Shown here: piece by piece, positions 73-9,678 of the stretch
Numbering within the stretch: position 1 is the stretch's first letter
Layout: every line of letters starts with the position of its first letter
Assembly: GCA_016183805.1 (NCBI GenBank)
Contig: JACPDX010000015.1
Location: 1 to 35,684 of the forward strand
Direction of reading: 5' to 3'
DNA: 35,684 bases
From: Bacteroidota bacterium
Lineage (GTDB): Bacteria > Bacteroidota > Bacteroidia > Flavobacteriales_E > Vicingaceae
The notes under the pieces: generated by a model
Database searches by the model: none
Told to the model about the DNA's origin: nothing
The model's input: the letters and a program-made list of their open reading frames with translations, nothing else
Translations under genes and position numbers: made by a program

Positions 73-158
73 GTGAATGTATTTTCACTTTACAAAGATG
101 ATCAGCTTAACACCTTAATGTGTTATACAATTCATGCTATGACTTACGTAATTCACAC
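73..158 (-). promoter_or_regulatory. Promoter with AraC-type operator, site A
   Basis: Read towards the gene on the minus strand, this has two direct-repeat boxes (plus-strand TTACGT 144-149 and TTATAC 123-128, 21 bp apart), then 22 bp, then a -7-like element CATCTTTG (93-100). An imperfect palindrome GTGAATGTATTTTCAC (73-88) follows where the transcript should begin. The distal box is followed by ATTCACAC (151-158). The same arrangement occurs at four other promoters here. Site A has the most diverged boxes of the five. Confidence 0.65.
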
Positions 159-170
159 TTTTTTACAAAT

Positions 171-203
171 AAAAAAGCCTGCTACATTTATACTGTAGCA
201 GGC
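171..203 (-). terminator. Rho-independent terminator after the two-domain DUF3494 gene
   Basis: A perfect 10-bp stem (177-186 with 194-203, GCCTGCTACA and its complement) has a 7-base loop. On the minus strand it is followed by six T (171-176). It lies 19 bp past the stop of the gene at 223-1845. Confidence 0.85.
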
Positions 204-222
204 GTTCATCTAAAATTACTTT

Positions 223-1845
223 TTATTGTTTAATCAGCTTACCCGATTGAACATTTTTATTGTTATCAATTACTCGGTAAAAATAAACTCCGGAAGGAAG
301 ATTACTAGTATCGAACGTAGTGGTTGATTTAGTGATAACTTCATTCATCATTTCTTTTCCCAACACATCATACATTCTTAGTTCAGTCGTATTTGATTTA
401 GAAAAATCATTTAATACGATGGTTGCAGATGTACTAAAAGGGTTTGGATAAATGGTAATTGCTTCATTAGTTGCATCAAGTGCTGAAATACCTACTGTTG
501 CACAATTCCCAGGAATTACACTAGCTACTACATCAACTGCAGTAGTAGTAATTGCACCTGTTGTTGTAAGAGATCTACCATTAAGGACAACCCCTGTATT
601 TAACGCTCCCAAAGCACCATTGTTACAGATGATTGTTCCGCAAAATTCGGAATAGTTGTTAATACCTACAGCACCTTCAATTTTCCAATATACATTTTTT
701 GCTTGTGCTCCGTTTGTTAAAACAACTTGCGAATAAGTGCTAGATGTTAAAGCTCCATTTATTTGAAGAACAAACACTGCATTAGCATTGCCTTCTGCAT
801 TTAAGAAAAGTGTGTCAGTTAGGTGAGCAGCAGCATTCATTAAATAAGTGTGAGGAGTAAGCACTAAACTATTTCCTAGTTTTACAGGAAACATTAATTC
901 AATATCGTAAGGTAAAACATTAATATAATTGTAAGCAAGCAATAAATCAGAGGCACATTGTGCAGTTGAAACATCCGGAATAAGGTGAATCTTTCCTGTT
1001 ACCAATAAAGAATCAAAACCAGTTGCAGAGCCATTATTGCTACCTACATCACCTGTAACAGTAGTAATACCTGAATTAGACACAGCTCCATTAGTTGAAA
1101 AAATAGCGTAACAAGCTGCTACACCTAATGCTGGAGCCGTTGGTCCATTATGCACAGGACTTCCACAACCTACAGGTGTATATCCTAAAATACCATCAAC
1201 AGTAACTGCTCCGGCAGTTGAAAGAGCTCTACCTTCCAATGTGCTACCAGTATGGATTAAAATAGCAGCATTGTTGGCAATAACAGTTCCTTTCATGGAA
1301 GTTCCAGAGGTCATGTCAACCAATCCTTCTACTTTCCAAAAAACATTACAAGCCAACGCTCCGTTAATCAATTTTATTGCTGACCCAGCAGTGGTGGATA
1401 ATGGTCCTGCTATTTGAAAAATAAATTCAGCGTTAGCATTACCTTGTGCATTTAAGTAAAGGTTTAAATTTAATGTTGTTGCGGCAGCAATAGCATATAC
1501 TCCGGCAACAAGTGTATCACCATTTCCAAGCAACGAAGAAGGAAAAAAATCAGGAACAGTACTGTTCAACTGATTATATGCAATTAATAAATCAACAGCA
1601 CATTGAGCAGAAGTTCCATCAGCATCGTGTATTTGACCATTAATGTTTTCGAAAGTTGTTGATGTACCGTTATTGGTACCAACGTTACCTGTTAAATGAT
1701 TTATACTGGTCATATTTACCGGTCCATCGGTAGAGAAAAGAACGAAATCTGCTGCTGTTCCTAAATTAGGTGCTTGAGCAGAAATTAAGTTTGGCATAAA
1801 AAACAGAGAAGCCGTTATTAATGCAAATTGTAATTTAGTTTTCAT
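223..1845 (-). CDS. Secreted protein with two DUF3494 domains and a T9SS sorting domain
   Basis: 540 residues. An N-terminal signal peptide (about 1-23, ending ISAQ) is followed by two tandem DUF3494 domains (about 25-225 and 235-445). Each has the family pattern: FVLFSTDGPVN or YAIFSTNGAVS, then GNVGTNNG or GDVGSNNG, a LNAQGNANAEFIFQI or LNAEGNANAVFVLQI strand, and a closing LEGRALSTAGAV or LNGRSLTTTGAI. The C-terminus (about 455-540: IYPNPF, YDVLGK, LPSGVYFYRV) is a type A T9SS sorting domain, so the protein should cross the outer membrane and be surface-anchored or released. DUF3494 includes known ice-binding proteins and many adhesins of unknown ligand; ice binding is not shown here. It has its own operator-bearing promoter (1864-1949) and terminator. 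Confidence 0.92.
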   Translation of the reverse strand: MKTKLQFALITASLFFMPNLISAQAPNLGTAADFVLFSTDGPVNMTSINHLTGNVGTNNGTSTTFENINGQIHDADGTSAQCAVDLLIAYNQLNSTVPDFFPSSLLGNGDTLVAGVYAIAAATTLNLNLYLNAQGNANAEFIFQIAGPLSTTAGSAIKLINGALACNVFWKVEGLVDMTSGTSMKGTVIANNAAILIHTGSTLEGRALSTAGAVTVDGILGYTPVGCGSPVHNGPTAPALGVAACYAIFSTNGAVSNSGITTVTGDVGSNNGSATGFDSLLVTGKIHLIPDVSTAQCASDLLLAYNYINVLPYDIELMFPVKLGNSLVLTPHTYLMNAAAHLTDTLFLNAEGNANAVFVLQINGALTSSTYSQVVLTNGAQAKNVYWKIEGAVGINNYSEFCGTIICNNGALGALNTGVVLNGRSLTTTGAITTTAVDVVASVIPGNCATVGISALDATNEAITIYPNPFSTSATIVLNDFSKSNTTELRMYDVLGKEMMNEVITKSTTTFDTSNLPSGVYFYRVIDNNKNVQSGKLIKQ

Positions 1846-1863
1846 GATACTTAGTTTTAGTTT

Positions 1864-1949
1864 GTGAAAATATTTTCACTATACAAAGATGTAGCGTTAA
1901 TTAGGAAATAGTGTTACACAGTTTTTTATATAAGTTACATTATTCACAC
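1864..1949 (-). promoter_or_regulatory. Promoter with AraC-type operator, site B
   Basis: Plus-strand boxes TTACAT (1935-1940) and TTACAC (1914-1919) are 21 bp apart, with ATTCACAC at 1942-1949. Exactly 22 bp separate the proximal box from the -7-like element CATCTTTG (1884-1891). A perfect 16-bp palindrome GTGAAAATATTTTCAC (1864-1879) lies just downstream, at the expected 5' end of the transcript. The proximal box falls in the -33 region, as for a class II activator. Confidence 0.75.
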
Positions 1950-1973
1950 TTATTGTCAGAATCATACTAAAAT

Positions 1974-2005
1974 AAAAAGAGTCTAGCGTTATCTAGACTC
2001 TTTTT
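1974..2005 (-). terminator. Terminator after the DUF3494 lipoprotein gene
   Basis: A 13-bp perfect stem (1974-1986 with 1993-2005; AAAAAGAGTCTAG and complement) has a 6-base loop. It can end transcription from either side; here it follows the stop at 2028 on the minus strand. Confidence 0.85.
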
Positions 2006-2027
2006 ATCCTTCGGTTAAAATTTAACT

Positions 2028-2831
2028 CTAAGGTTGTACTACAGTGCTTCCTTTTATTGTAACTGCTGCAATTCTGGCTAACAATCTACCTTCTACAACG
2101 GCTCCTGTATTTAATGAAATGGATTGATCCGCCATAATTGTTCCTTTAAAAACTGAAGTGCTTCCTAAAGTTGCAGAAGTACCCACTTGCCAAAAAATGT
2201 TAGCAGCCAATGCTCCTCCAGCAAGAATAACTTTTCTACCTGAAGTAGTATTAAGTGTAGATGCTATTTGAATGATAAAAACAGCATTGGCATCACCTTT
2301 TGCATCTAAAGTAAGGTCGCCTGATGAAATTTGGAGTGAACCACTTGATTTATACAATCCGGGTGTAAGTGTTAATCCACCAATATTGCCTGCAAGTAAA
2401 ACAATGTCAGTTGAAGTACGACCGGCGGCATCGTTATAAGCTGTGGTTAAATCACCTTTGGCAGCTGTAAGTCCAACAGCATTTGGTACTGATCCTGCAG
2501 GACCGGAAGCATCTACCGTATAAACGATTCCTGTAATTTCACCAGCACCAAATCCGGTAATATTACTACCGGCAGCTGGGCTTAATCCAATATTTCCGGT
2601 AAGTGCAGAGGTTGGAACGTTCGAAATTAACGAACCTGCAAGTACAATGTAATCCGCTGTTGTACGAAGGTCAATTGTCGCTTGAACTACAGTTTGAACA
2701 GGTATCACACTTGGATTTGAATATGCTCCGCCCGACGAAGTTGATGGAGTAGTGGTGTTGTCTTTTGAACATCCTACCATTAATACAACTGATGCTATTG
2801 CAAAGGTTGTTATTATGTTTTTAGTTTTCAT
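2028..2831 (-). CDS. DUF3494 lipoprotein
   Basis: 267 residues. The N-terminus MKTKNIITTFAIASVVLMVGC is a lipoprotein signal with Cys21 as the predicted lipidated residue. It is followed by SKDN and a Thr/Ser-rich linker, so outer-membrane anchoring is likely. One DUF3494 domain spans about 55-265 (ADYIVLAGSLISN, GNIGLSPAAG, LDAKGDANAVFIIQI, VVEGRLLARIAAVTI). Unlike its two neighbours it has one domain and no T9SS tail, so it reaches the surface by another route. It shares the operator-bearing promoter (site C) and has its own terminator. The ligand is unknown. Confidence 0.9.
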   Translation of the reverse strand: MKTKNIITTFAIASVVLMVGCSKDNTTTPSTSSGGAYSNPSVIPVQTVVQATIDLRTTADYIVLAGSLISNVPTSALTGNIGLSPAAGSNITGFGAGEITGIVYTVDASGPAGSVPNAVGLTAAKGDLTTAYNDAAGRTSTDIVLLAGNIGGLTLTPGLYKSSGSLQISSGDLTLDAKGDANAVFIIQIASTLNTTSGRKVILAGGALAANIFWQVGTSATLGSTSVFKGTIMADQSISLNTGAVVEGRLLARIAAVTIKGSTVVQP

Positions 2832-2870
2832 TTTGTTTGATTTTAATTTTCCGAAACTGACGGAGCAGAT

Positions 2871-2956
2871 GTGAATTTACTTTCACTATACAAAGGTGTA
2901 ATGTTAATTAAGGTTTAGTGTTACACAGTTTTTTTTATAAGTTGCATTATTTACAT
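2871..2956 (-). promoter_or_regulatory. Promoter with AraC-type operator, site C
   Basis: Plus-strand boxes TTGCAT (2942-2947) and TTACAC (2921-2926) are 21 bp apart; the distal flank ATTTACAT is a weaker match to ATTCACAC. There are 22 bp to the -7-like element CACCTTTG (2891-2898). The inverted repeat GTGAATTTACTTTCAC (2871-2886) sits at the same distance from the -7 element as in sites A and B. The distal box abuts the stop codon of the Hpt gene. Confidence 0.7.
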
Positions 2957-3327
2957 GTTTTTTTAACATTCGTAAGTAAAATCCAGTCGTTTAGTTCTTG
3001 GATGGCTCTTCTAAATTTTTTTTTGGTTTTTGAAAAAAGCATACCAATTCCTAAAATATCTAATTGATTAACAGCCAATTTTTCTATTTCGAGAAGGTCT
3101 TTCTTTACAATTTTATCTAACCCAACATAATACATTATCCCTTTTATATTATGAATACGCGACTTAATTAATGTAAAATCATTTTCAATAATGCCTTTCT
3201 CTATTAGTTGTATTTCTTTAGTTATTTCGGTAATAAAAAGTTTAATCATATCAGTTATTATATGATTATTTCCGGTAGTCAACGTAGTAAGATAATTCAA
3301 ATTAATTATTTTTCTTAAATGCTTCAT
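2947..3327 (-). CDS. Stand-alone Hpt (histidine phosphotransfer) protein
   Basis: 126 residues, all helical in appearance. Residues 56-70 (SRIHNIKGIMYYVGL) match the Hpt active-site pattern HxxKGxxxxxG, with His59 as the likely phospho-acceptor. A preceding helix (LFITEITKEIQLIEKGIIEND) and a following helix (KKDLLEIEKLA) complete the four-helix-bundle pattern. Such proteins shuttle phosphate between receiver domains. It is the last gene of the operon started at site D, 11 bp after the cupin gene. It probably exchanges phosphate with the hybrid kinase at 5414-8986 and/or the receiver protein at 4962-5417, but the partner is inferred from position only. Confidence 0.8.
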   Translation of the reverse strand: MKHLRKIINLNYLTTLTTGNNHIITDMIKLFITEITKEIQLIEKGIIENDFTLIKSRIHNIKGIMYYVGLDKIVKKDLLEIEKLAVNQLDILGIGMLFSKTKKKFRRAIQELNDWILLTNVKKTCK

Positions 3328-3338
3328 ACAAGTAATGA

Positions 3339-3743
3339 TTATTCAGTTGTAACCTCATCATACTCTTCTTCGTTCTCCTTTGCTTCTGCATCTTGTTTAG
3401 TTTTACGTATAATTCCATCTTTGTGATGAGGAGGTGAATAAATGGTATAAAACTTCAACATTTTTTCATTGGAGGTATTTATTACATTATGTTCGGATCC
3501 GGCAGGTACCATAATTGCATCATCTTCAGAAACAAAGTGTTCATCACCATTAATGATACATATTCCTTGCCCACTTTCAAATCGAAAAAATTGATCGTTG
3601 TCTGGATGTGTTTCTAAGCCTATATCTTCATTTGGAAGTAAACTCATTAACACCAATTGACTATGTTTTGAGGTGTAGATAACCTTCCTGAAGTTATTAT
3701 TCTTAAAAGTTTCTTTCTCAATATTTATGTTTAATCCTCGCAT
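3339..3743 (-). CDS. Small cupin-domain protein
   Basis: 134 residues, one Cupin_2 barrel. Motif 1 is near 46-59 (HPDNDQFFRFESG) and motif 2 near 79-90 (PAGSEHNVINTS). Metal ligands would include the motif 1 His/Glu and the motif 2 His. An acidic tail (KENEEEYDEVTTE) follows. There is no signal peptide, so it is cytoplasmic. Cupins of this size bind small ligands or act as sugar isomerase/oxygenase-like enzymes; the substrate cannot be told. It starts 2 bp after the coiled-coil gene in the same operon. A sensory ligand-binding role is possible but unproven. Confidence 0.8.
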   Translation of the reverse strand: MRGLNINIEKETFKNNNFRKVIYTSKHSQLVLMSLLPNEDIGLETHPDNDQFFRFESGQGICIINGDEHFVSEDDAIMVPAGSEHNVINTSNEKMLKFYTIYSPPHHKDGIIRKTKQDAEAKENEEEYDEVTTE

Positions 3744-3745
3744 GG

Positions 3746-4156
3746 CTATTGGTTGTTTTTAGTTGAATCGTCTTCTTTTTCTTTTCTAGCATCAGCCTCT
3801 TTCTGGTTTGCTTTTTTAATTTTTTGGGCTTTTCTCTCCACTTTTTTATCGGCTCTATTTTTTTGTCTTTCTTTCCTTTCAACAATTTTGTCAGCTTTTT
3901 CAACCGCTTTTTCTCTTTTTTCTAGTTTTTTCTCTGCTTTTTCTAGATTTCCTTCTTTTTTATCAGCATTTTTCTCTGCCTTTATTAAATCTTCTGCTCT
4001 ATCTTGCTTTTTTTCTAAAGCTTTTTGCTCTTCTTTTAGTTGTTTATCTGCTTTTTCAGTTTCGTCTTTAACCGTGTTGTTTTGTGCAAATGCTGAACCA
4101 GATACTATCAGTCCGCCTAAGGCTACTGATAAAATTAATTTTGTTATTGTTTTCAT
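3746..4156 (-). CDS. Secreted Lys/Glu-rich coiled-coil protein
   Basis: 136 residues from the ATG at 4156, chosen because it opens a clear signal peptide (MKTITKLILSVALGGLIVSGSAFAQ); the frame is open 33 codons further upstream but without sensible sequence. The mature part is almost entirely Lys, Glu, Asp, Ala and Arg in heptad-like blocks (EKAEKKLEKREKAVEKADK), a single long charged helix. The function is unknown; small periplasmic charged helices can bind envelope components or act as stress proteins. It lies 16 bp after the preceding gene in the site D operon. The opposite strand also has a long open frame, an artefact of the biased composition. Confidence 0.75.
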   Translation of the reverse strand: MKTITKLILSVALGGLIVSGSAFAQNNTVKDETEKADKQLKEEQKALEKKQDRAEDLIKAEKNADKKEGNLEKAEKKLEKREKAVEKADKIVERKERQKNRADKKVERKAQKIKKANQKEADARKEKEDDSTKNNQ

Positions 4157-4172
4157 TTTATTATAGTTGTTA

Positions 4173-4703
4173 TTAGTGATTTTTTCCTTTTCCACCACCT
4201 TTATTACCACCACCACCTTTACCTTTGTTTTGTTGGTGGTTTTGTTTATTTCCATGACCAGTATTATGTTTGTTACCAGTATTTTTTGAAGGTTTATTCA
4301 TGTTTGAATTACCTTTTCCAGGATGTGGCCCATTGGTTTTTTGTGCTGCACCATGATAACCTTTTTTATATTTTACTTTATAAAAATTATGATTGTTGTA
4401 TGGTGAGTTTCCATGATAGTCGTTTAACACCACTTTGTACCCGTTATACAAATCATATCCACGGTATCTTTTAGGAAGATAAGCCCGATGGATCCAATTT
4501 CCTCCAACAAAATATATAAACATAGAAGAATGAACATCATAATATGCTTCCACATCAGGAAGATAATAGTATTGAACTTCGGAATATCCGACAGGACCCC
4601 ATTGCGGCGGACTTCCAATATTTATATTTACAGAAACTTGTGCACTTACTGTGCTTGAAAGAAATATTATTATTCCGATTGCGATTAGTTTTAAAGTTTT
4701 CAT
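4173..4703 (-). CDS. Secreted protein with Tyr-rich domain and basic Gly/Lys/His/Asn tail
   Basis: 176 residues. A signal peptide (about 1-21, STVSAQ) is followed by an aromatic domain (about 30-115, YYYLPDVEAYYDVHSSMFIYFVGGNWIH then LPKRYRGYDLYNGYKVVL). From about 118 there is a low-complexity tail rich in Gly, Lys, Asn, Gln and His, ending in poly-Gly/Lys. I recognise the aromatic part as resembling short secreted proteins common in Bacteroidota but know of no function. The basic tail could bind polyanions such as LPS, DNA or exopolysaccharide. It is the first gene of a four-gene operon behind site D, with a leader of about 115 bases holding a GAATTCG/CGAATTC inverted repeat (4738-4774). 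Confidence 0.75.
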   Translation of the reverse strand: MKTLKLIAIGIIIFLSSTVSAQVSVNINIGSPPQWGPVGYSEVQYYYLPDVEAYYDVHSSMFIYFVGGNWIHRAYLPKRYRGYDLYNGYKVVLNDYHGNSPYNNHNFYKVKYKKGYHGAAQKTNGPHPGKGNSNMNKPSKNTGNKHNTGHGNKQNHQQNKGKGGGGNKGGGKGKNH

Positions 4704-4822
4704 ATGTAGATTTTTATGGTTTTTTATTTGTCATATGGAATTCGCTAATAATCATTCGTGTTTGTATCGAATTCTCGTTAGGCTCATTTCATCTTGTTTT
4801 AATTTAGTTGTTTTTAATAAAA

Positions 4823-4888
4823 CAAAGATGAATATCTTTAATCTCGAACTTGTTACATTATTTTAGGATTGAGTTACATCATTCACAC
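4823..4888 (-). promoter_or_regulatory. Promoter with AraC-type operator, site D
   Basis: Plus-strand boxes TTACAT (4874-4879) and TTACAT (4853-4858) are 21 bp apart, with ATTCACAC at 4881-4888. There are 22 bp to the -7-like element CATCTTTG (4823-4830). The match to site B is full, but the GTGAA/TTCAC palindrome of the DUF3494 promoters is absent. It drives the operon from 4703 to 2947. Confidence 0.72.
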
Positions 4889-4904
4889 ACACATAAAAAA
4901 ACAA

Positions 4905-4934
4905 AAAAGCAATCCATTTTTATGAATTGCTTTT
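4905..4934 (-). terminator. Terminator of the AraC-kinase-regulator operon
   Basis: A 9-bp stem, AAAAGCAAT (4905-4913) with ATTGCTTTT (4926-4934), extends by CAT/ATG past one mismatch and closes on a T-rich loop. It is followed by a T-run on the minus strand and lies 28 bp past the response-regulator stop. Confidence 0.75.
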
Positions 4935-4961
4935 AAAAGTAATTAGGAGGGGCGATAACGA

Positions 4962-5417
4962 CTACATTCGATCCATGTACCAATTCAATTCCTTTTCCAT
5001 TTTTTTATATTTAAAAATGGTGGTGATGATTTTTTGCAGGCGCACAAAAGCTGTCTCGCTTTTAACTACATAATCGAAAGCTCTATGGTGCATACAGTTT
5101 ATAGCCACATCAATATTGTCTTGTGAAGAGAGCATCACTACAGGAATATCCGGATTATATGCCTTTATTTTGTCTAAGGTTTCAATTCCATTCATGGCAG
5201 TTACGTCAATTCCATCCAGCTGATAATCCAGAATAACAACATCAGGCGTATGTTTTAAACTTTTCATACAAAGTTCTCCTGTAGCAAAAGTTTCTATAAT
5301 AAAATCGGCATTTTCTAGAAATTCGATTTGTAATGTTTTTAAAAATAAAGCATCATCGTCAACTAAAAATAATTTAATTTTTTCAGGGATGTTTACTACG
5401 TGTTTCGATTTGTTCAT
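4962..5417 (-). CDS. Receiver-only response regulator
   Basis: 151 residues, a single REC domain (about 14-138). The acidic pocket is Asp20-22 (LFLVDDD), the phospho-acceptor Asp64 (VILDYQLDG), then the Ser pair in VVMLSS and the Lys in DYVVKSE. An extra short loop (IDVTAMNG) follows the phospho-Asp. No DNA-binding or enzymatic output domain is present, so it acts by protein contact or as a phosphate sink or shuttle. Its ATG overlaps the kinase stop codon (ATGA, 5414-5417), which implies translational coupling and that it serves that kinase. Confidence 0.9.
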   Translation of the reverse strand: MNKSKHVVNIPEKIKLFLVDDDALFLKTLQIEFLENADFIIETFATGELCMKSLKHTPDVVILDYQLDGIDVTAMNGIETLDKIKAYNPDIPVVMLSSQDNIDVAINCMHHRAFDYVVKSETAFVRLQKIITTIFKYKKMEKELNWYMDRM

Positions 5418-8400
5418 TCGTTGTTGTTTTTAATGGTATTAAATTCTTCTTCTAGTTCTATACAGGCTTGATTACAAATGTTTTCCAGTTGCAATACCAT
5501 GGGGTGAATTAATTCAGTTTGTTGCTGCGTACTGGCGTATTCCTGTATTTTTTTTGCTAAGTTTTCAAAATCTACATGAATTCCAACAATTGAAAAAGAA
5601 GGAATCATTTTATGCACTGCCGCTTGTAATAATGGCCAATCTTTGTCTAGATCACCTTGCTTCATTGTTTTAATTAACGGTGTAGTTTGTTCTAAATAAA
5701 GGGTTATCATTTCCATCATTAATTCCGGGTTCGATTTTGTACGTTGATTTAAATAAGTCAAATCGGTACATTTTTCTTTTTTAATTTCCGAAGTTATTAT
5801 CTCTTTTTTTTCGTTCGGTTTTATTTGTGTTGGTTTTGCAACCAAACCAATTATTTTAGTGTATAGTACTCTTTCATCAATTGGTTTGGCAATGTAATCA
5901 TCCATGCCAACCGCTTTACATTTTGCTAAATCAACGGTAGTTACATCGGCAGTTAAGGCAATTATTGGGATTTTTGAATTTAGGGTGTTTCGTATATAAT
6001 CGGTAGTTTCAAAGCCATTCATTACTGGCATTTGCAAATCCATCAAAATGATGTCGTAATCTTTGGTTTTTAATTTTTCGATGGCAACTTTTCCATTGTC
6101 TGCAATATCCCGATCAAACCCAAAATCATCCAACAAAGTTTTCATCAACAATTGATTGAGTGCAATATCTTCCACCACCAACACTTTAATGTTTTTAATT
6201 TCGTCATCTATTTCCGTAATCAGTGTTTCAGAATCCACCACCTTATCTGTTTTTCCAAAACTTAGCGTAAAACTAAAAACTGAACCGACATCAACAGTGC
6301 TTTGTACTTGAATACTGCCCCCTTGTGGTTCTATCAATTGTTTAACAATGGCAAGCCCTAAACCTGTTCCACCATATAATCTTGACGTATCGCTTGTGGC
6401 TTGTTGAAAATCGTCGAAAATAGTGGGTATTTTAGTTGCAGTTATTCCTATTCCCGTGTCGGCAACGGAAAACTCAAGTGTTACCTTTTTTTTGTCTTGT
6501 TTTAACAAACGCACACTTACCGTAATTGATCCTTTTCTCGTAAATTTTACTGCATTGCTTACTAAGTTTAAAATGATCTGGTGCAAACGCACAGGGTCGC
6601 CAACCAATACATCTGGAATCCGATCATCATACTCTCTTATCAAAAGTAAATTCTTTTCCTGAATTTTTATTTCAAACAAATGCAGCATGGACGATAAAGT
6701 GTCAGCCATTATGAAAGGGGTTTGCTCAAAAGTCATTTTTCCGGCATCCACTTTTGCTAAGTCTAAAATATCGTTGATCAAAACAATCAACGCATTTCCA
6801 CTAATCCTTATGGCGTTTAAGTATTCTTTTTGTTTATCGGTTAAATTGGTTTTTAACAACACTTTGGTAAATCCAATAATCGCATTCATTGGAGTACGAA
6901 TTTCGTGGCTCATGTTCGATAAAAATTGCTGTTTTGCTTTTACTGCATTTTCAGCAATACTTGTAGCACTTTCAGCTTTTATCTTTGCTTCCTCAGCAAT
7001 TGTTGTTGCCAATTCTGCAAATATTTTTGCTTCTGTTAATTCATTTTCAAATATGTTTTGTTCGGTTATATCTCTTGCCACCACAACGGCACCAATTACT
7101 TCGCCACTATCATTTTTATATACCGATCCATTAAACAATACATCAGTCAACTTTCCATCTTTGATGGTGAGCGGAAAATCGACCACAAATCCTTTTTTAA
7201 AAATTTGCTGATAACTTCTTTGTGCTTTTTTTGGGTTGGTAAAATAGTCGCAGAAATCCGAATTTATTAATTTATCGCGTGATACTCCTGTTACTTTTAC
7301 TGTTGCTTGATTTAAGTCGGTAATTTTTCCTTCGGTACTGATTGTAAATAGTGGGTCACGGCTTGCTTCAATTAAACTAAGAGAATATTGTGATGCTAAT
7401 TTTAAAGAAGAACTAATTGCTTCCAATTCTTTGTTCGCTATTTCTCGTTTTTCTCTTTCCTTGTTTTGAAATTCAAGTTCTTTATCTGCAATAACCAACT
7501 CAGCTGCTCTTTTTTCTTTCTCACCTGTTTGAAAAACAAGTTCTTTATTGGCTATAACTAACTCAGCTGCTCTTTTTTCTTTCTCATTGTTTTGAAAAGC
7601 AAGTTCCTTGTTGGCAATACTTAACTCAGTAGCCCTTTTTCCTTTCTCTCCATTTTGAAAAGCCAATTCTTTGTTGGCAACACTCAACTCATTGGCTCTT
7701 TTTTCTTTTTCATTGTTCTGAAAAGCCAATTCTTTATTAGCAATACCCAACTCATTGGCTCTTTTTTCTTTTTCATTATTCTGAAAAGCAAGTTCTTTGT
7801 TGGCGATAAGCAATTCGGCTGCACGCTTTTCTTTTTCATTGTTCTGGAAAGCCAATTCTTTGTTGGCAACGCTCAACTCATTGGCTCTTTTTTCTTTTTC
7901 GTTGTTCTGAAAAGCCAATTCTTTGTTTGCAACACTCAACTCATCGGCTCGTTTTTCTTTTTCTTCATTCTGAAAAGCAAGCTCTTCATTGGCGATAAGC
8001 AATTCGGCTGCACGCTTTTCTTTTTCATTGTTCTGAAAAGCCAATTCTTTGTTGGCAATACCCAATTCAATAGCTCTTTTTTCTTTCTCATTGTTCTGAA
8101 AAGCCAACTCTTTATTTGCAATACTCAACTCATTGGCTCTTTTTTCTTTTTCATTATTCTGGAAAGCAAGCTCTTTATTAGCGATACTTAATTCATTAGC
8201 CCGTTTTTCTTTCTCTTTATTTTGGAAGGCAAGCTCTTTATTTGCTATTCGTAAATCTACCGACCATTTTTGCTCGGTAACATCCCTAGCAGCAGCAAAT
8301 ACACCAAGAACATTTCCTTTATCATCTTTGTAAATTGATGCATTATACAAAACATCGATTAATTTTCCATTTTTATTTTTAATGGTTAATGGGTAATCAG

Positions 8401-8986
8401 CTACAAAACCTTTATCAAATACTTTCTTATAACCTTGCTTCGCCTTCAATGGCTCAGTAAAATAATCCGAAAAGTCTGTTCCAATCAGTTTGTTGCGTTT
8501 TATTCCTGTTACTTTTACTGAAGCTTCATTTACATCGGTTATCTTTCCCTCGGCACTTATGGTGACAAGAGGGTCTAAACTTGCTTCAATTAATCTACGT
8601 GCATATTGTGAAGATTGTTTTTGTGCAGTAATATCTCTTGCGGCAGCAAAAACACCGAGAACATTTCCTTTGTTATCCTTATAAACAGAAGCATTGTATA
8701 ATACATCTGTTAATTTACCATTTTTGTGTTTTATTGTCAATGGATAATCCGAAACAAAACCTTTATCAAAAACCTGTCTGTAACCTTTTTGAGCCATTAA
8801 AGGCTCTGTAAAATAATTTGAAAAGTCAGTCCCAATAAGGTTTTTCCTGGAAACACCGGTTACTTTAATAGAAGCCTCGTTCACATCAGTAATTTTCCCT
8901 TCAGCGTTTATGGTTACCAAAGGGTCCAAGCTGGCTTCAATTAAACTCCTCGCATATTGAGATTTCTCCGTTTGAATCTTTTCCAT
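5414..8986 (-). CDS. Soluble hybrid histidine kinase: PAS-PAS-13x21-residue coil-PAS-HisKA-HATPase-REC-Hpt
   Basis: 1190 residues with no membrane segment, so cytoplasmic. PAS 1 (about 9-122) and PAS 2 (about 127-240) are near duplicates. Residues 244-514 are thirteen copies of a 21-residue heptad repeat (IANKELAFQNNEKEKRA plus linker). PAS 3 spans about 532-645. HisKA has SHEIRTP with His694. The ATPase domain has Asn811 (N box), DTGIG from Asp843 and GGTGLGL 872-878. The receiver has Asp983 (ILMDLQMPVMNG). A C-terminal Hpt-like region has His1125 (VHKMIPSFSIVG). The full phosphorelay His694-Asp983-His1125 is therefore present, and the separate receiver encoded next is the likely final acceptor. 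The signal is unknown; PAS domains could bind a cofactor or metabolite. It starts 5 bp after the AraC gene. Confidence 0.93.
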   Translation of the reverse strand: MEKIQTEKSQYARSLIEASLDPLVTINAEGKITDVNEASIKVTGVSRKNLIGTDFSNYFTEPLMAQKGYRQVFDKGFVSDYPLTIKHKNGKLTDVLYNASVYKDNKGNVLGVFAAARDITAQKQSSQYARRLIEASLDPLVTISAEGKITDVNEASVKVTGIKRNKLIGTDFSDYFTEPLKAKQGYKKVFDKGFVADYPLTIKNKNGKLIDVLYNASIYKDDKGNVLGVFAAARDVTEQKWSVDLRIANKELAFQNKEKEKRANELSIANKELAFQNNEKEKRANELSIANKELAFQNNEKEKRAIELGIANKELAFQNNEKEKRAAELLIANEELAFQNEEKEKRADELSVANKELAFQNNEKEKRANELSVANKELAFQNNEKEKRAAELLIANKELAFQNNEKEKRANELGIANKELAFQNNEKEKRANELSVANKELAFQNGEKGKRATELSIANKELAFQNNEKEKRAAELVIANKELVFQTGEKEKRAAELVIADKELEFQNKEREKREIANKELEAISSSLKLASQYSLSLIEASRDPLFTISTEGKITDLNQATVKVTGVSRDKLINSDFCDYFTNPKKAQRSYQQIFKKGFVVDFPLTIKDGKLTDVLFNGSVYKNDSGEVIGAVVVARDITEQNIFENELTEAKIFAELATTIAEEAKIKAESATSIAENAVKAKQQFLSNMSHEIRTPMNAIIGFTKVLLKTNLTDKQKEYLNAIRISGNALIVLINDILDLAKVDAGKMTFEQTPFIMADTLSSMLHLFEIKIQEKNLLLIREYDDRIPDVLVGDPVRLHQIILNLVSNAVKFTRKGSITVSVRLLKQDKKKVTLEFSVADTGIGITATKIPTIFDDFQQATSDTSRLYGGTGLGLAIVKQLIEPQGGSIQVQSTVDVGSVFSFTLSFGKTDKVVDSETLITEIDDEIKNIKVLVVEDIALNQLLMKTLLDDFGFDRDIADNGKVAIEKLKTKDYDIILMDLQMPVMNGFETTDYIRNTLNSKIPIIALTADVTTVDLAKCKAVGMDDYIAKPIDERVLYTKIIGLVAKPTQIKPNEKKEIITSEIKKEKCTDLTYLNQRTKSNPELMMEMITLYLEQTTPLIKTMKQGDLDKDWPLLQAAVHKMIPSFSIVGIHVDFENLAKKIQEYASTQQQTELIHPMVLQLENICNQACIELEEEFNTIKNNNE
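7445..8257 (-). repeat. Tandem 63-bp coding repeat, 13 units, in the hybrid kinase
   Basis: Thirteen consecutive 63-bp units (the last 57 bp) encode the 21-residue coiled-coil repeat. Units are highly similar in DNA and protein. Variation clusters at the first residues of each unit (ELS, ELG, ELL, ELV) and the last (N, A, I, D, T). Being exactly three heptads long, the unit can change in copy number without altering frame or coiled-coil phase. Confidence 0.95.
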
Positions 8987-8991
8987 GTTTA

Positions 8992-9585
8992 TTAATTGAT
9001 GTGCGAATTTGGGTTAGTTGCATTTCCAATGTCTTCAATCGAGCTTCTTCTTTTATCTTTTAATTGTTTAAAATGTGAAGGGGATAATCCCGTCATTTTT
9101 TTAAACTGATTGGATAAATGAGCAACACTACTGTAATTCATTTTCCAGGCAATTTCGGTAATGTTTAATTCATTATAAATAATGAGTTCCTTGATGCGTT
9201 CAATTTTATGAGCAATAATAAATTGTTCAATGGTTGTGCCTTGCACTTCCGAAAACAAGTTGGATAAATAGGTGTAATCGTAATTTAATTTTTCGCTTAA
9301 ATAATCAGAGAAATTCACTTTAATTATTTCATCACTATAATGTACCATTTCAATTATTACATTTTTAATTTTTTCAATCAGCATGGCCTTTTTATCATCC
9401 ATTAACTCAAGACCGGAAAGTAGTAAACCCGCTTTTATCAATTCGCGTTGTTCCATGGTAATGTTTTCCATGATTTCTACTTCGCCCAATTCTACAGGAG
9501 TAAAATGCAAATCAAGTTTTTTCAATTCTTCTCTCACGGCAAGTTTGCAGCGGTTACTAACCATGTATTTGATAAAAAGTCTCAA
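8992..9585 (-). CDS. AraC-family transcriptional regulator
   Basis: 197 residues. The C-terminal AraC DNA-binding domain (about 85-180) has a first helix-turn-helix around NYDYTYLSNLFSEVQGTTIEQF and a second with the family signature (ITEIAWKMNYSSVAHLSNQFKKMTGLSPSHFK). The N-terminal 70-80 residues (MRLFIKYMVSNRCKLAV, then LDLHFTPVELGEVEI) resemble the small ferredoxin-like/HMA-like domain seen before AraC domains in other Bacteroidota, with one Cys where metal-binding relatives have CxxC; this comparison is from memory. It heads the operon with the kinase and receiver. Its own promoter carries the 21-bp direct repeat, so autoregulation is likely. It has no receiver domain, so how the phosphorelay reaches it is not visible. 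Confidence 0.9.
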   Translation of the reverse strand: MRLFIKYMVSNRCKLAVREELKKLDLHFTPVELGEVEIMENITMEQRELIKAGLLLSGLELMDDKKAMLIEKIKNVIIEMVHYSDEIIKVNFSDYLSEKLNYDYTYLSNLFSEVQGTTIEQFIIAHKIERIKELIIYNELNITEIAWKMNYSSVAHLSNQFKKMTGLSPSHFKQLKDKRRSSIEDIGNATNPNSHIN

Positions 9586-9613
9586 ATTAATTTATTTAAA
9601 TAATAACCCACAG

Positions 9614-9678
9614 CAAAATTGCAAAGTACTAAAAGAGAAAAGTTACATAACTTTAGTAAAAAGTTACATAATTCACTG
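9614..9678 (-). promoter_or_regulatory. Promoter with AraC-type operator, site E (autoregulatory)
   Basis: Plus-strand boxes TTACAT (9664-9669) and TTACAT (9643-9648) are 21 bp apart, followed by ATTCACTG (9671-9678). A -7-like element CAATTTTG (9614-9621) lies 21 bp from the proximal box, one base closer than at the other four promoters. It lies directly before the AraC gene and so joins regulator and targets. Confidence 0.7.

Follow-up and report, generated by a model that had tools for sequence, protein, structure and literature searches.

Here we report on a family of shared operators in a 35,684-nucleotide stretch of DNA (contig JACPDX010000015.1 of assembly GCA_016183805.1, from a member of the Bacteroidota, family Vicingaceae), which we refer to as the window. 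The five operators that it contains probably represent the window's part of a regulon under the control of an AraC-type activator, encoded at positions 8992–9585 on the minus strand, that has a predicted HMA-like N-terminus and would receive input from a kinase and a receiver. AraC itself, at araI1–araI2, is an autoregulated activator of the AraC/XylS family that uses tandem half-sites; regulators of this family bind direct repeats close to the –35 region and often, though not always, control their own genes. By computation we observed the operator and its spacing, a base preference in the –7 element, a site at the regulator's own promoter, conservation of the operon that encodes the regulator, and co-occurrence of operator and regulator among genomes.

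Each of the operators, here S1 to S5, is 36 bp long and lies 5′ of a minus-strand gene (123–158, 1914–1949, 2921–2956, 4853–4888 and 9643–9678), and in the sense of the genes they share the consensus GTGTGAATNATGTAACT-N14-TGTAAC. A preliminary description of this DNA had claimed two TTACAY-like boxes 21 bp apart at these five positions, and all five sites were found there; both boxes of S1 (TTATAC and TTACGT) and one box of S3 (TTGCAT) depart from TTACAY, and the full NATTCACAC is incomplete at S3 and S5. When a weight matrix made from four of the sites was used to look for the fifth, every held-out operator came out among the five best of the 71,298 positions that the two strands offer. The pattern of the distal box, with at most one mismatch, matches nine times in the window, four of them at the operator sites (2.2 matches expected; none of 100 shuffles reached nine). 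Furthermore, a model made from 27 sites near the AraC genes of close relatives, with no site from the window, recovered all five on the minus strand as 37-mers: S1 at 122–158 (E 2.1e-11), 5′ of a gene that extends beyond the window's end; S2 at 1913–1949 (E 6.9e-10) and S3 at 2920–2956 (E 7.6e-9), each 5′ of a DUF3494 gene; S4 at 4852–4888 (E 4.4e-12), 5′ of genes for a secreted, a coiled-coil, a cupin and an Hpt-like protein; and S5 at 9642–9678 (E 6.7e-11), 5′ of the AraC-kinase-receiver operon, where it would serve autoregulation.

The close relatives from which the model was made came from a set of 60 genomes, the window's own included, in which AraC matches at E ≤ 0.001 were present in 46, many of them merely other AraC proteins; near their AraC genes these relatives carry the same operator with the same spacing. 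A weight-matrix scan of the own genome and of relatives, as the preliminary description had proposed, bore out the operator well beyond the window. For the relatives, we scanned 1.27 Mb around the best 80 of at least 586 AraC relatives, a set that includes Flavobacterium, Lutibacter, Aequorivita, Sunxiuqinia, Niastella, Emticicia, Paludibacter and Mucilaginibacter and that may include species also present among the genomes used for training. These loci hold 255 sites at ≥16 bits, as against 0–1 for ten column-permuted matrices, and at least one operator is present in 76 of the 80. The proximal box lies exactly 21 bp from the distal box in 156 of 223 cases, while any other spacing between 8 and 60 bp occurs at most four times. 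The claimed site at the regulator's own promoter was likewise found, in the window and 5′ of the AraC gene in 50 of the 79 loci with enough upstream sequence. A gene starts within 200 nt downstream of 170 of 235 sites, and a divergent gene within 200 nt upstream of 23 of 235. Across all fetched loci, training loci and own genome included, there are 349 distinct sites at ≥20 bits; for 320 of them a start codon follows at no more than 400 nt (median distance 71 nt, middle half 65–86), and 7 fall inside an open frame of at least 120 amino acids.

With the model from other genomes, the own genome yielded 17 operators at E < 1e-4, the next best having E 0.03 (the best 150 of 5499 first-look candidates were scored). 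Five are in the window; contig C81 has nine, and contigs C19, C15 and C66 have one apiece. Contig C81 encodes, among others, a receiver, a hybrid kinase, an Hpt protein (Pfam Hpt E 9.2e-10, passing the cut-off), CsbD, an AI-2E-type transporter, PD40/OmpA proteins, DUF3494 proteins and lipoproteins, and in several cases the gene follows an operator immediately. This contig probably adjoins the left end of the window, the junction falling within a single DUF3494 gene and lacking about 33 nt as judged by eye from a paralogue; if so, the two would form a single island with 14 operators.

Each operator in the window is followed by an element that resembles the TTTG-type –7 element of the primary sigma factor of Bacteroidota. 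On the minus strand we read CATCTTTG at 93–100, 1884–1891 and 4823–4830 for S1, S2 and S4, CACCTTTG at 2891–2898 for S3, and CAATTTTG at 9614–9621, 20 nt from the end of the 37-mer, for S5. All five have the form C-A-N-N-TTTG, with C as the first base, and lie at the distances from the 36-mer claimed earlier (22 bp in four cases, 21 bp in the fifth) when read directly. Among 234 sites at ≥20 bits, an xAnnTTTG element lies 3′ of the operator at 21 nt in 134 and at 20 nt in 29, with no other offset found more than four times, and among the 163 elements at 20–21 nt the commonest first base is C (98), ahead of T (32), G (24) and A (9). The substitution of C for the first T of TAnnTTTG, noted earlier for the window, proved to be regulon-wide: C outnumbers T by 50 to 17 in regulon promoters (n = 92), whereas control promoters of the same loci have 28 C and 63 T (n = 122; p 6.6e-8 for C versus T). 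At the fourth position, too, C is rarer in control genes than in the regulon promoters of the same loci. The bases between the boxes and the –7 element are poorly conserved across loci. The TTTG-type –7 elements of these promoters do not suggest an alternative sigma factor as their driver, a factor for which no aimed search was made.

The first genes behind the 320 operators include 53 with an AraC domain, 50 with a DUF3494 match, 7 receivers and 7 homologues of a secreted protein in the window; the enrichment before DUF3494 orthologues that the preliminary description had staked its claim on is thus present. These first genes fall into 92 single-linkage blast groups, 55 of which are singletons, and the largest groups are AraC/kinase/receiver (64), DUF3494-type (56), CsbD-type (20), PD40/OmpA (16), lipoprotein (11) and small membrane protein (9). 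Representatives named by Pfam comprise CsbD (E 0.002, below cut-off; the own-genome copy has 8e-13), DUF5670, outer-membrane-protein (OMP) barrel, DUF4142, BON, superoxide dismutase, ferritin and PPK2, together with a sigma-70 family factor, a Crp-type regulator, a short-chain dehydrogenase and a pyridoxal phosphate (PLP) decarboxylase; several were chosen for their likeness to stress genes, and so they show presence, not frequency. DUF326 is also found among the metal- or oxygen-related targets, and 4 of 10 representatives in one checked batch have no Pfam family. Because the operators precede this mix of CsbD, superoxide dismutase, ferritin, BON, PPK2 and surface genes, we read the regulon as what may be a general-stress and cell-surface programme. 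At one locus (L047:3403–4260, in genome G028) the gene for a sigma-70 family factor is first behind an operator and adjoins the AraC gene.

The putative regulator, whose gene has a TTG start, carries an AraC-type domain with two helix-turn-helix motifs at residues 96–174 (PF12833, HTH_18; E 8.1e-18), for which Foldseek returned the domains of MarA, SoxS and AraC. In an AlphaFold2 model based on a 40-row alignment (mean predicted local distance difference test score, pLDDT, of 87), this domain follows an N-terminus with the β-α-β-β-α-β order that defines the HMA domain, with pLDDT blocks of 91–94 over residues 1–60. The first Foldseek matches other than AraC proteins (ranks 42–45 of 431) are the copper chaperones TTHA1718, Atx1, CopZ and 2qif, with E 0.04–0.09, probability 1.00 and template-modelling scores by target of 0.62–0.72; the chaperone structures 2xmt, 6ff2, 2qif and 2roe are matched over 66–69 columns. 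In an hhalign comparison, Ser10 and Cys13 fall on the two cysteines of the MxCxxC motif (E 3e-4, probability 40%, 23 columns). Pfam misses HMA in the window protein, and structure prediction was therefore needed to see the HMA-like fold; among four Cys-type relatives checked, Pfam reported HMA in two, below cut-off (E 0.04 and 0.08). A copper-chaperone fold is accordingly what the model predicts for the N-terminus, which is HMA-like by fold and not a member by metal site, having MVSNRC in place of MxCxxC.

An alternative is that the regulator has remained a sensor of metals or of thiol redox state and acts via Cys13, its remaining cysteine, in which case the regulon would be a copper or oxidative response and the kinase would only modulate it. 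Cys13 is indeed invariant across the 40 aligned members; a GMTC-type heavy-metal gene lies within three genes of 8 of 13 Cys-type (MVCxRC) relatives outside the 80-locus set, and a variant operator lies 5′ of such a gene at loci L050 and L054 (scores 17.6 and 19.9); and superoxide dismutase, ferritin and DUF326 are among the targets. However, the first metal-cysteine position is Ser in 96 of 113 members (Cys in 16, one untyped), which is to say in 96 of the 112 that could be typed, and the kinase operon is seen only with the Ser form: none of the 16 Cys-type members has a kinase as its next gene. The largest target groups, moreover, consist of non-metal genes, and we consider a metal or redox sensor unlikely. 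The Ser and Cys states are clustered on a tree (3 changes versus 15 with shuffled labels), which was made with FastTree, has long branches and 15 of 110 inner branches starred, and serves only for such trait clustering. Ser-type members without an adjoining kinase also exist (L012–L020). Among individual loci, Cys-type (MVCxRC) AraC genes with no adjoining kinase are found at L195:10841 and at the Niastella loci L194 and L209, and L195 has an operator before a gene that by eye resembles a fatty-acid desaturase. At locus L201 at least three AraC genes cluster with receivers and a kinase, and in Arcticibacter svalbardensis (L197:10001–10558) the AraC orthologue has an internal stop and its 20 kb hold no operator, a possible natural loss of the system.

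In the window, the regulator gene is followed on the minus strand by a gene for a hybrid histidine kinase (5414–8986) with three PAS stretches, coiled-coil repeats, HisKA, HATPase and a receiver, and then, with a 4-nt overlap of the reading frames, by a gene for a CheY-like stand-alone receiver (4962–5417). The C-terminal part of the kinase is Hpt-like by eye only, with no Pfam match to Hpt. A PAS hybrid kinase lies at most three genes after AraC, or is fused to it, in 67 of the 80 loci, and a CheY-like receiver lies at most two genes past the kinase in 64 of those 67. At loci L139 and L161, AraC and kinase share a single reading frame with AraC at the N-terminal side; the two linkers differ, and an assembly slip is possible in either. 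PAS domains are the only sensory domains that Pfam sees in the window's kinase. It found no receiver domain on the regulator and no DNA-binding domain in kinase or receiver, so that the signal would reach the AraC protein by contact. Of the phosphorelay modules, a kinase with a receiver and a separate receiver are encoded together here, and the Hpt candidates are the 126-residue protein of the window (E 0.0013, below cut-off) and the protein of contig C81. Within the kinase gene, positions 7444–8242 of the window consist of 12.7 copies of a 63-base tandem repeat, also with a 189-base period, that by eye codes for a coiled coil; the kinases of other loci range from about 630 to 1540 amino acids. 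Elsewhere in the own genome (L003; G000:C66:30430), an operator variant with 20-bp spacing is followed by a receiver gene and then by a gene for a receiver-SpoIIE phosphatase, which hints at a link to partner switching.

Operator and regulator tend to occur in the same genomes. In the set of 60, with own and training genomes included, sites at E ≤ 1e-3 are present in 18 of the 19 genomes with an AraC match at E ≤ 3e-60 and in 4 of the 41 others (p 1.4e-10, by a Fisher test that, here and below, counts genomes as independent although they are related). A second draw of 198 genomes of the class had sites at E ≤ 1e-5 in 33 of 73 with AraC at E ≤ 1e-45, as against 15 of 125 without (p 3e-7). This draw partly overlaps the first; with the 29 genomes already seen removed, 169 remain, and sites are found in 27 of 60 with AraC versus 14 of 109 without (p 9e-6). 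A close AraC was invariably accompanied by sites, both at ≥69% identity among the 198 genomes (14 of 14) and at ≥70% among the 169 further ones (10 of 10). In 15 genomes with sites and no AraC at E ≤ 1e-45, a search with an AraC profile recovered a relative in 7; the other eight, joined by G025 and G035, make up the ten genomes discussed below.

Several results weigh against the regulon as we have drawn it. Bare TTACAY pairs, with at most one mismatch in all, are as frequent in the window at 33 bp as at 21 bp (six each; not significant), and the evidence therefore rests on the full 36-mer. The own-promoter operator is absent at 29 of 79 AraC genes, and no kinase lies within three genes of AraC in 13 of 80 loci (12 show no kinase, several of them with contig ends or a PAS part only, and one is at a contig end). 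The HMA likeness is weak at the sequence level: Pfam misses it in the window protein, the hhalign probability is 40% and the Foldseek E values are 0.04–0.09. Sites at E ≤ 1e-5 are missing from 40 of the 73 genomes of the class in which AraC matches at E ≤ 1e-45. The main contradiction, in our view, lies in ten genomes that have operators and no AraC by profile search at E ≤ 1e-15 (G025, G035, G041, G079, G099, G123, G130, G159, G166 and G200). Eight of them are rated 94–99% complete, and assembly gaps therefore need not account for all; G166 has six sites and G200 seven. The operon's receiver gave no match at E ≤ 1e-20 in seven of the ten, and matches only 36–44% identical in the other three. 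In G166, G200, G159, G099, G123 and G041, several sites precede CsbD, DUF3494 and receiver genes and others precede unrelated genes or none. The ten genomes may reflect incomplete assembly, an operon lost not long ago, or binding by some other protein.

If another binder were general, the linked AraC protein would be a bystander, and the sites would belong to, for example, an extracytoplasmic function (ECF) sigma factor or a different AraC paralogue. Such a reading could draw on those ten genomes, eight of them near complete, and on a distant AraC paralogue in the own genome (G000:C60). It is nonetheless improbable: a TTTG-type –7 element lies at a fixed distance from the operator, the operator is linked to this AraC protein by the sites at its own promoter and by their co-occurrence, the same-genus genome G001 has no sites and only a distant, paralogue-like AraC, and the operon's receiver has no DNA-binding domain.

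We infer that the AraC-type activator encoded at 8992–9585 would act as follows. Two regulator molecules in head-to-tail arrangement would bind the same face of the DNA, the first occupying the strong distal half-site GTGTGAATNATGTAAC and the second the weaker proximal half-site, which ends in TGTAAC beside the –33 region. Each MarA or AraC monomer makes two helix-turn-helix contacts, and a further box, GTGTGAAT, which lies one helical turn 5′ of the distal TGTAAC, would fit such contacts. The bound regulator would then help the primary sigma factor to use a degenerate –7 element (most often CANCTTTG rather than TANNTTTG); direct repeats two turns apart, a proximal box near –33 and a weak –7 element together fit activation by two AraC monomers. 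The own operon would be among the targets, giving feedback. The PAS hybrid kinase and the CheY-like receiver most likely pass a stress signal to the regulator by phosphorelay, and we would guess that the receiver docks on the HMA-like domain as the point of contact; the operon and the two fused frames suggest the link between the relay and the regulator. Some AraC proteins repress, and the closeness of the proximal half-site to the –33 region would suit a regulator that represses the operator promoters. We think this quite improbable, given that the operators lie upstream of the –7 element and that this element departs further from TANNTTTG than it does in control genes, which fits activation. 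That the shared operators reflect recent duplication of promoter-plus-gene segments is hardly credible: S1–S3 do precede DUF3494-type genes and have flanking bases that are alike beyond the operator, but S4 and S5 precede unrelated genes, the 320 sites precede 92 blast groups, and the bases from box to –7 element are poorly conserved.

The remaining genes of the window, all on the minus strand, bear out the earlier account of the targets in part. Of the three claimed DUF3494 targets, two are assigned by PF11999: the protein encoded at 2028–2831 (Ice_binding-like; E 4.4e-63) and the one encoded at 223–1845, with two matched stretches (E 1.3e-73) and a Por secretion sorting tail (PF18962; E 3.4e-13). 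The probable third is represented in the window by its first 53 bases (1–53), probably continues on contig C81, and is classed as DUF3494 because its start is near-identical to that of the 223–1845 gene. In the claimed operon of secreted, coiled-coil, cupin and Hpt proteins, the cupin (3339–3743; Cupin_2, E 6.5e-15) is assigned by Pfam, the Hpt-like protein (2947–3327; 126 amino acids, E 0.0013) is below the curated cut-off, and the secreted protein (4173–4703; homologues are the first gene at 7 of 320 operators) and the secreted coiled-coil protein (3746–4156; internal ATG start) are so classed by eye, with no Pfam family at E 0.001. Overall, the AraC regulon of the preliminary description is supported; the HMA-like domain, the kinase and receiver operon and the targets outside the window had gone unseen.

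A wider interpretation, which we offer tentatively as somewhat short of an even chance, is that many Bacteroidota use this regulon as their general stress response, run by an AraC activator in place of an alternative sigma factor, the activator being derived from a copper-sensing regulator that lost one metal cysteine and came under the control of a PAS-kinase phosphorelay via a CheY-like receiver. The system resembles AraC/XylS regulons in its AraC-type domain, its direct-repeat half-sites 21 bp apart and its own-promoter site, and differs from them in having a predicted HMA-like N-terminus instead of a cupin sugar-binding domain, a Bacteroidota-type –7 element, many targets, and a kinase and receiver. 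In YesN-type two-component AraC regulators and the hybrid two-component systems of Bacteroides, a histidine kinase is coupled to an AraC-type output, as may be the case here, and the matches in the PDB include the DNA-binding domains of YesN and AraT; here, however, the receiver is a separate CheY-like protein, none was found on the AraC protein, and in the two fused frames AraC precedes the kinase. The predicted N-terminal fold is like that of the HMA chaperones CopZ and Atx1, with the MxCxxC position recognisable, whereas here the first cysteine is a serine and the domain is joined to a DNA-binding domain. With the general stress responses of RpoS, SigB and EcfG/PhyR the regulon shares CsbD, BON-domain, superoxide dismutase and ferritin targets and a probable kinase and receiver input, but it apparently works through an AraC activator at TTTG-type promoters instead of an alternative sigma factor. 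We found no description of this regulon, which we regard as a variant of the autoregulated AraC type, in the literature covered, most subscription journals and bioRxiv preprints being outside that coverage.

To our knowledge, Bacteroidota lack RpoS, SigB and EcfG, and how they coordinate a general stress response is an open question. The regulator described here would provide a single candidate for the control of general stress protection in these bacteria. Its operator appears precise enough for the prediction of targets in genomes with a close orthologue (all ten further genomes with an AraC at ≥70% identity had sites), and the promoters suggest a rule, namely a degenerate –7 element at 20–21 nt. 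By association, the regulon suggests roles for uncharacterised genes, namely those for DUF3494, DUF4142, DUF5670, CsbD and small membrane proteins, and in its regulator a metal-chaperone fold has apparently been reused for signalling.

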